IMG/VR virus record: IMGVR_UViG_3300013132_002272
Coordinates: 1 to 28,129 of that record
Direction: 5' to 3' (one strand)
DNA: 28,129 nucleotides
Origin: a virus
Shown here in pieces: positions 19,837 through 21,662 of this stretch. How positions within the stretch are numbered: position 1 is the stretch's first letter; each line of letters begins with the position of its first letter. Under the pieces are notes generated by a model, which worked only from the letters and a program-made list of their open reading frames with translations, ran no database searches and had not been told where the DNA came from. A program made the position numbers and the translations under genes.

Positions 19837-19860
19837 CAAAATAAGTATCAGATAATACTA

Positions 19861-19897
19861 AGGGGTGCTTGACACTCCTTTCTTTTTGCTATATAAT
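19861..19897 (+). promoter_or_regulatory. Composite terminator and early promoter before hli
   Basis: AGGGGTG/CACTCCT (one G-U) forms a hairpin with a 5-nt loop, followed by TTCTTTTT: an intrinsic terminator for the glycan cassette. The same bases carry TTGACA (19869-19874) and, exactly 17 nt later, TATAAT (19892-19897), a perfect consensus promoter for the photosynthesis block. Confidence 0.85.
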
Positions 19898-19924: not shown

Positions 19925-20134
19925 ATGACTGTAACAACTAATGAGCGTGGTCAACAGAATATGTGGGCAACAGAGCCTACGATGTACGTATCGCAATCAG
20001 ATGCTGAACGTTATGCACTAGAAACACATGCAGAAAGAGCGGAGAAAACCAATGGACGCTGGGCTATGGTCGGTATTATTGCTGGGTTTATTTCTTATGC
20101 TCTCACTGACAAGTTTTTCTTCGGAATCTTCTGA
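19925..20134 (+). CDS. hli: High-light-inducible protein (Hlip)
   Basis: Encodes 69 residues. The C-terminal membrane helix carries the chlorophyll-binding signature EKTNGRWAMVG (40-50) and ends in GIF. Hlips are one-helix relatives of LHC antenna proteins that bind chlorophyll and protect photosystem II under light stress; phage copies support host photosynthesis during infection. The N-terminal 35 residues are an uncommon hydrophilic extension. ATG at 19925 sits about 20 nt behind the expected transcription start. Overlaps the next tiny gene by one nt. Confidence 0.92.
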   Translation: MTVTTNERGQQNMWATEPTMYVSQSDAERYALETHAERAEKTNGRWAMVGIIAGFISYALTDKFFFGIF

Positions 20135-20220
20135 TGACTCAAACACTCTGGACAATCACAACAGTTGCTTTTTTTGTGATTCTAGGTTATGCTGTAGAGC
20201 AACTTTCCGAAACTTACTAA
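20134..20220 (+). CDS. 28-residue single-pass membrane peptide between two hli genes
   Basis: The start overlaps the last base of the hli stop (TGATG) and the frame runs to TAA at 20220. The peptide starts MTQTLWTITTVAFFVILGY and consists of a short polar N-terminus, one membrane helix (about 5-20) and an acidic tail (VEQLSETY). Size, topology and position in a photosynthesis operon resemble the very small subunits of photosystems or the cytochrome b6f complex (PsbX/PsbT/PetL/PsaM class), but it matches none that I can recall. Tight coupling to both hli genes argues for a real gene. Confidence 0.6.
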   Translation: MTQTLWTITTVAFFVILGYAVEQLSETY

Positions 20221-20231
20221 GGAGAAAAACA

Positions 20232-20339
20232 ATGAACGAACGCGCAGAACGTATTAATGGTTGGGCAGCAATGATTGGTATTATTGCTGCTATGGGAGCA
20301 TATGCGGTAACAGGCCAAATCATCCCCGGTATCTTTTGA
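20232..20339 (+). CDS. hli: Short high-light-inducible protein
   Basis: Encodes 35 residues, MNERAERINGWAAMIG followed by IIAAMGAYAVTGQIIPGIF, the minimal Hlip. The usual Arg of ExxNGRxAM is Trp here (NGWAAM), a variant I have seen as common among cyanobacterial and phage Hlips. TGQIIPGIF is the phage/multicopy-Hlip C-terminal signature. The start is set by AGGAGA 8 nt upstream. The longer open frame upstream is not used. Confidence 0.9.
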   Translation: MNERAERINGWAAMIGIIAAMGAYAVTGQIIPGIF

Positions 20340-20380: not shown

Positions 20381-20420
20381 CCCTCTTGACAGAGGGATTT
20401 TTTTTGTGCTATAATAAATA
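20381..20420 (+). promoter_or_regulatory. Composite terminator, early promoter and late box before psbA
   Basis: CCCTCT/AGAGGG with a 4-nt loop and eight T form a terminator behind hli. TTGACA (20386-20391) spans stem and loop; TATAAT (20410-20415) follows after 18 nt and is itself fused to a late box, ATAATAAATA (20411-20420). psbA could thus be transcribed throughout infection. Confidence 0.8.
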
Positions 20421-20428
20421 GATAAACA

Positions 20429-20533
20429 AATGTTACGGAATTCTCATAATTCGTAACATTACTACACCCGCTAACCGAGACCTATGGGTGTATAAATCAC
20501 GTCTCTCATACCCACAGTGGAGGGTGCTGTGGG
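20429..20533 (+). promoter_or_regulatory. Structured psbA leader with three hairpins
   Basis: Between promoter and psbA lie about 160 nt without a gene. Three stem-loops follow each other: AATGTTACG(G)AATT with AATTCGTAACATT (20429-20460, 13 bp with one bulged G), TACACCC/GGGTGTA (20463-20492, 16-nt loop) and CCCACAG/CTGTGGG (20511-20533, 9-nt loop). TATAAATC just after the second is a second late-box candidate. The leader may control stability or translation of the psbA mRNA. Confidence 0.6.
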
Positions 20534-20582
20534 ATATACTTATAACTGTTCGTTCCCCCGAACTTTTACTTACCCCTTTCAA

Positions 20583-21662
20583 ATGACTGCTTCAATCGCT
20601 CAACAAAAACAACCGAATACTTGGGACCAGTTTTGTAACTGGGTTACTTCAACGAACAACCGCCTCTATGTTGGTTGGTTCGGTACTCTGATGATTCCTA
20701 CGCTTCTCGCCGCAACAATTTGCTTCATCGTTGCATTTATCGCTGCTCCACCCGTGGACATCGATGGTATCCGTGAACCAGTCGCTGGTTCTCTTCTATA
20801 CGGAAACAACATCATCTCTGGTGCTGTTGTGCCTAGTTCCAATGCTATTGGACTTCACTTCTATCCCATCTGGGAAGCTGCTTCTCTGGATGAGTGGCTA
20901 TATAATGGCGGACCATTCCAACTGGTCATCTTCCACTTCCTGATTGGTATCTATGCTTACATGGGTCGTGAATGGGAACTCTCTTACCGACTTGGTATGC
21001 GTCCTTGGATTTGTGTTGCCTACAGCGCACCCGTTGCTGCTGCTTCTGCAGTGTTCCTCGTGTATCCCTTTGGACAAGGTTCCTTCTCTGACGCCATGCC
21101 TCTTGGAATTTCAGGCACATTTAACTACATGCTTGTTTTCCAGGCAGAACATAATATCCTCATGCACCCTTTCCACATGCTTGGGGTGTCTGGTGTATTC
21201 GGTGGTTCTTTGTTCTCTGCTATGCATGGATCTTTGGTCACAAGTTCCCTCGTGCGTGAAACCACAGAGAATGAGTCACAAAACTATGGATACAAGTTCG
21301 GTCAAGAAGAAGAAACCTACAACATTGTAGCTGCTCATGGTTACTTTGGTCGTCTAATCTTCCAATATGCATCGTTCAATAACTCACGTTCACTGCACTT
21401 CTTCCTGGCTGCATGGCCTGTGGTTGGCATCTGGTTCACTGCTCTTGGTGTGTCCACGATGGCATTCAACCTCAACGGTTTCAACTTCAACCAGTCACTG
21501 ATTGATAGTCAGAACCGGGTCATTCCTACCTGGGCTGACATCCTCAACCGTGCTGGTCTTGGTTTAGAGGTAATGCACGAAAGGAACGCACACAATTTCC
21601 CTCTAGACCTTGCTGCTGCTACTACAACTTCTGTTGCTCTGACTGCACCTGCAATCGGTTGA
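20583..21662 (+). CDS. psbA: Photosystem II D1 protein
   Basis: Encodes 359 residues. D1 holds P680, pheophytin, QB and most ligands of the water-oxidising Mn cluster in the thylakoid; it is damaged by light, and phage copies keep photosynthesis running during infection. Visible landmarks: five membrane helices, [17 protein letters not shown], Glu130 in [13 protein letters not shown] (the E130 form associated with high light), [13 protein letters not shown], and the C-terminal LDLA before the [15 protein letters not shown] extension, which CtpA removes after Ala344. No intron or frameshift. The ATG at 20583 gives the standard N-terminus; the open frame up to 20517 is leader. Confidence 0.98.

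Follow-up and report, generated by a model that had tools for sequence, protein, structure and literature searches.

Psb34 (Ssl1498/Tsl0063) and Psb35 are small host proteins with a single membrane helix, and both are tied to HliA/B-type high-light-inducible proteins (Hlips). Psb34 shares its N-terminus with HliA/B, and the two are thought to be competitors for the CP47/D1/PsbH/PsbL site; Psb35 stabilises Hlips (PMC9458560). The phage peptide described here is likewise a small, one-helix membrane protein tied to an HliA/B-type protein, with the link being genetic: an hli gene lies upstream in 154 of 156 loci. Unlike Psb34, the phage peptide does not have the N-terminal arm that is common to HliA/B, and a PDB search that included the Psb34 entries returned no sequence similarity between the two. 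The best reading would be one of analogy to Psb34 and Psb35, and probably not of homology, with Psb35 being likened by description.

A second group for comparison is formed by the smallest subunits of the photosynthetic complexes, that is, PetN, PsaM, PsbX and PsbT (about 28–40 residues; cytochrome b6f, PSI and PSII). These are like the phage peptide in length and in having a single helix. The phage family differs in that it shows no profile similarity to them and in that no chromosomal host gene was found for it. Third are the cyanophage Hlips themselves (phrog_178), adjacent small membrane proteins that belong to the same cassette and are probably linked to the peptide by translation. They differ in having an NGRxAM-type chlorophyll-binding motif, which is absent from 79 of 79 distinct peptides; a scan of family members gave no match to phrog_178. 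Finally, the peptide resembles the conserved, overlooked microproteins of predicted phage and microbiome small-protein catalogues (PMC11364881, PMC11323111).

The 28-codon gene and its neighbours

The window, meaning the whole stretch of DNA analysed, is a virus record of 28,129 nucleotides (28 kb) whose closest relatives are the T4-like cyanophages. The features surrounding the peptide gene are collected in Table 1. The gene comprises 28 codons followed by a TAA stop at 20218–20220, and the A of its ATG is also the final letter of the hli03 TGA (20132–20134), so that the two genes overlap by 1 nt in the sequence TGATG. The ATG of the second hli follows 11 nt past the peptide stop. A preliminary description had placed the gene at 20134–20220, with a start that shares the final base of the first hli stop and an 11-nt gap before the second hli, and all of this was found to be exact.

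Table 1. Features surrounding the peptide gene in the window
Feature	Position	Strand	Basis
Terminator-like hairpin, TTGACA in loop region, 17 nt, TATAAT	19860..19897	+	Sequence scan
hli03, 69-aa high-light-inducible protein	19925..20134	+	phrog_178, E 1.4e-31
Peptide gene, MTQTLWTITTVAFFVILGYAVEQLSETY	20134..20220	+	tblastn, IMG/VR scan, pN/pS; TGATG overlap with hli03
GGAGAA, Shine-Dalgarno-like site of second hli	20221..20226	+	Sequence
Second short hli, 35 aa, without N-terminal extension	20232..20339	+	phrog_178, E 1.2e-18
Second terminator hairpin, TTGACA inside, 18 nt, TATAAT	20381..20415	+	Scan; second 12/12 promoter
PhotoRC-II RNA motif (cis-regulatory), psbA leader	20454..20547	+	Rfam RF01717, 82.6 bits
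psbA (photosystem II D1)	20583..21662	+	84–92% identity to cyanobacterial PsbA

Upstream of hli03, a sigma-70 promoter at 19869–19897 has 12 of 12 consensus bases and overlaps the terminator-like hairpin. As judged from its letters, this element is predicted to be an early promoter with stem-loop (a PeSL-type cassette) that drives hli03. The second hairpin and promoter would mark the place where the hli03–peptide–hli unit ends and the psbA unit begins. The unit is thus bracketed by two 12/12 sigma-70 promoters, each with its TTGACA box within a terminator hairpin. PeSLs have been reported as mediators of module shuffling in T4-like phages (cited in PMC4503421).

The same surroundings recur in other loci. 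The two loci with no hli upstream lie too near the ends of their contigs, and the 80 loci from the IMG/VR scan were fetched with the peptide, not hli, as the query. The TGATG overlap with the preceding stop is present in 114 of the 156. The first recognised gene after the peptide is a short hli (102 loci) or petF (44 loci); psbA is also found downstream. Fusion with an hli stop takes two forms, since in two loci (L065 and L068) it is the stop of the short hli, and not that of hli03, to which the peptide start is joined. In loci with hli some 190–680 nt away, the peptide usually adjoins petF, and the order hli–(x)–peptide–petF is seen in RN05-S, S-H68, S-RSM4, S-SZBM1, S-T4 and S-SKS1. In approximately 25 loci (for example, L002 1495–1500, L018 2714–2719 and L023 3262–3267), TTGACA abuts the peptide ATG and the DNA further upstream differs, a border that looks like a possible recombination junction. 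One contig (L101, NHGE01000071.1) is binned as Euryarchaeota archaeon TMED129; it carries a cyanobacterial or cyanophage-type psbA and is probably mis-binned.

The gene has been passed over in annotation, as the preliminary description had anticipated for genes of this size. It falls in an unannotated gap in nine phage regions (S-SM2, S-PM2, RN05-S, S-RSM4, S-SZBM1, S-T4, SynMITS9220M01, S-SKS1 and S-H68), and among the tblastn matches listed there was no clearly corresponding CDS. Annotators skipped it because it has only 28 codons. In S-RIM4 (MK493321.1; L004 2550–2699), a CDS annotated as the second hli begins inside the peptide gene and covers part of it, which is probably a wrong choice of start. 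The literature, of which a part was covered, yielded no description of the 28-codon ORF, and a prior listing in phage small-gene catalogues is possible.

Conservation, selection and distribution

Small size and hydrophobicity are weak evidence for a gene, as 17 of the 153 ATG-initiated ORFs of 24–40 residues in the window are equally hydrophobic. The reality of the gene is accepted because of its conservation, which is decisive where length and hydrophobicity are not. Using tblastn, the window peptide matches 143 cyanophage records and a sister sequence matches 152; almost all of these matches span the whole 28 residues, at 46–82% identity. This conservation of the frame in related phages is the outcome that the preliminary description had proposed to look for. 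A profile-guided scan identified at least 516 IMG/VR contigs with a homologue, and across the 156 analysed loci the product rarely departs from a length of 28 residues.

Selection was examined using 99 distinct DNA versions, which encode 79 distinct peptides. Residues M1, L17 and T27 are invariant among these peptides; T7, T9, F13, L24, E26 and Y28 are nearly so, and the C-terminal end reads (S/A)ETY. Family members have one hydrophobic stretch, with a KD mean over 19 residues of 1.45–2.31. The Trp near the N-terminus, previously singled out as a resemblance to photosynthetic subunits, is present in the window peptide but is not a family trait, since residue 6 is Phe in 54 and Trp in 24 of the 79 peptides. 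Diversity at codon positions 1, 2 and 3 is 0.29, 0.13 and 0.50, and pN/pS is 0.22 in frame, whereas the two shifted frames give 1.17 and 1.98. In 48 disjoint pairs, which on a tree are not fully independent, there are 287 synonymous and 167 non-synonymous changes (pN/pS 0.19, binomial p ~3e-68). The reading frame is under strong purifying selection. A helical periodicity of conservation was not significant (p 0.79). It is nearly certain that the 28-codon ORF is a genuine gene; its product is a predicted single-helix membrane protein peculiar to cyanobacterial phages.

Homologues occur in viruses of both ocean and lake cyanobacteria. A profile search of 20 whole phage records found the gene in S-PM2, S-SM2, S-RSM4 and S-SZBM1. 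It was not found in the Synechococcus phages Syn9, Syn19, Syn1, Syn33, S-SM1, S-SSM5, S-SSM7 and S-ShM2, although these carry hli03 and psbA, and all eight phages from Prochlorococcus hosts likewise gave no match. As many phages with hli03 and psbA do not have the peptide gene, it is accessory, seen to date in phages of the Synechococcus type, and it is therefore not required for Hli function generally. In P-HM1 (L273 1501–1811) and P-SSM2 (L274 1471–1803), the slot after hli03 is filled by another hli, a second hli03 copy.

In 786 cyanobacterial genomes (400 Cyanobiaceae and 386 phylum-wide), there was only one convincing match, with an E value of 2.5e-10. It lies in a Cyanobiaceae genome (G239:C1:724627-724771; L168 1501–1647) and is a 48-residue version consisting of MSQFIFTTTTITFIVLLAFAVEQLGETF plus a 20-residue charged tail; no relatives of this long form were found in the phage collections. 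The surrounding region is low in GC and has genes for a RecE-like exonuclease, a DNA ligase, a helicase-primase and a NinI-type phosphatase and, for these reasons, it is read as a probable prophage. No hli is present within the 36 kb fetched around this homologue. Weak matches (E ~0.01) in Prochlorococcus-like genomes were dismissed as short and partial, with several being antisense to larger genes. The absence from hosts does not result from poor sensitivity towards short proteins, because the identical method readily finds PetN, PsaM, PsbX and PsbT in 7–8 genomes of a 12-genome subset, at E values of 1e-8 to 1e-22.

What the peptide may do

The gene directly adjoins the end of a gene for photoprotection and, for this reason, a photosynthesis-related role is proposed. 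Judging from this arrangement, the peptide probably helps the virus to manage the photosynthetic machinery of the host. The specific proposal, to which we assign a probability of about 0.45, is that the peptide is a phage-specific, one-helix protein whose translation keeps pace with that of an HliA/B-type Hlip and which works together with that Hlip at photosystem II. That it would be a photosynthesis helper had been suggested previously; the photosynthetic context (hli03, small hli, petF and psbA) holds in essentially every locus, and the role itself is read from that context. Counted in favour of a role with Hli at PSII are the purifying selection, the upstream hli, the TGATG overlap, and the psbA, petF and short hli surroundings. 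Counted against it are the accessory distribution, the prophage homologue with no hli, and the lack of helical periodicity.

The proposed mechanism is as follows. Ribosomes finishing Hli would re-initiate on the peptide start, and Hli and peptide would therefore be made together. The peptide would then insert into the thylakoid membrane and bind beside the phage Hli, the PSII assembly intermediate bound by HliA/B-type proteins (CP47/PsbH region), or both. There, it could stabilise Hli binding or set its timing while D1 from the phage psbA is assembled during infection. Psb34 and Psb35 adjust the binding of Hlips at CP47, and the peptide would act in a similar way. By this analogy, a small helix co-made with an HliA/B-type protein would most simply be a partner or placement factor for that protein. 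The N-terminal stretch of hli03, TTNERGQQNMWATEPTMYVSQ, can be aligned with the PSII-binding N-terminus of Psb34, TTDEGGRLNNFAIEPKVYQAQ (7dxa_B; Tsl0063), in a weak match (E 1.4) that is colinear from residue 2.

A different photosynthetic role is unlikely but has some evidence in its favour. Here, the peptide would act in electron transport around PSI and ferredoxin, as a small membrane subunit, either docking the ferredoxin that the phage encodes (petF) or altering PSI, NDH-1 or cytochrome b6f. The 44 loci with petF as the next recognised gene point this way, as does the position of the peptide, which usually adjoins petF where another gene splits it from hli; this may speak for ferredoxin and PSI over PSII. 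However, a short hli takes the place of petF in 102 loci, the start–stop fusion is with hli, and there is no similarity to PetN, PsaM, PsbX or PsbT.

Small one-helix phage proteins often serve in exclusion, inhibition or lysis timing, and the peptide could in principle be one of these, acting in superinfection exclusion, the inhibition of a host membrane protein or the timing of lysis. Its place in the hli cassette would then be a matter of convenience, with translation coupling and early promoters at hand. The prophage homologue without hli fits such a non-photosynthetic role, as do the promoter/stem-loop elements at the cassette ends, a type known for module shuffling. What argues against it is that, across diverse contigs and phages, the gene almost invariably keeps company with hli, and we regard such a role as improbable.

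It is more improbable still that the peptide is a diverged photosystem or b6f small subunit captured from a host. Its size, one helix and photosynthetic neighbours are in keeping with such an origin, and one family member has a sub-threshold match to PetN. Family members gave no significant match in Pfam, PHROGs, NCBIfam or the PDB; among the 39 members scanned, the best single-member E values were 0.013 (SecE), 0.041 (a PHROG) and 0.065 (PetN), with none from the PDB. Profiles of PetN, PsaM, PsbX and PsbT were built from cyanobacterial genomes and compared to the family using hhalign, which returned probabilities of 1.9%, 0.1%, 0.2% and 5.0%, respectively. As positive controls, the prophage homologue scored 97.9%, and two subsets of the family scored 99.3% against each other. 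Direct profile comparison thus speaks against these subunits as the identity of the peptide, and the 786 genomes gave no convincing host homologue outside the probable prophage, while the same four subunits are detected in most of the 12-genome subset. The preliminary description had likened the peptide to the smallest subunits of the photosystems or of cytochrome b6f, and a relationship of this kind is unsupported: because the profile–profile comparison fails, the resemblance is one of size and layout only.

The two remaining explanations deny a role to the product. A cis-acting leader or coupling ORF, in which translation matters for the next gene and the product does not, would suit the tight spacing between two genes; it is strongly disfavoured, since the amino acids are conserved (pN/pS 0.19) even though the downstream gene varies among short hli, petF and others. 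A chance ORF with no function, common as ORFs this small are by chance, is ruled out by conservation, invariant length and the selection seen in the 48 pairs.

A possibly phage-born companion of hli

To our knowledge, the photosynthesis genes of cyanophages (psbA, hli, petE and petF) are well catalogued and are regarded as host genes taken up by phages. The peptide gene is a widespread companion that directly follows hli03 and for which no counterpart was detected in hosts. It is carried by S-PM2, a much-used model phage, where it starts at 124556 of NC_006820. What phage Hlips do is still open (PMC2984593), and the peptide could help to explain their function. A doubtful, more far-reaching proposal is that the peptide is a photosystem-associated subunit, either invented by phages or kept by them with no detectable host ancestor, which is made with the phage Hli and remodels PSII during infection. 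If this is true, the photosynthesis genes of phages would include phage-born parts in addition to captured host genes.
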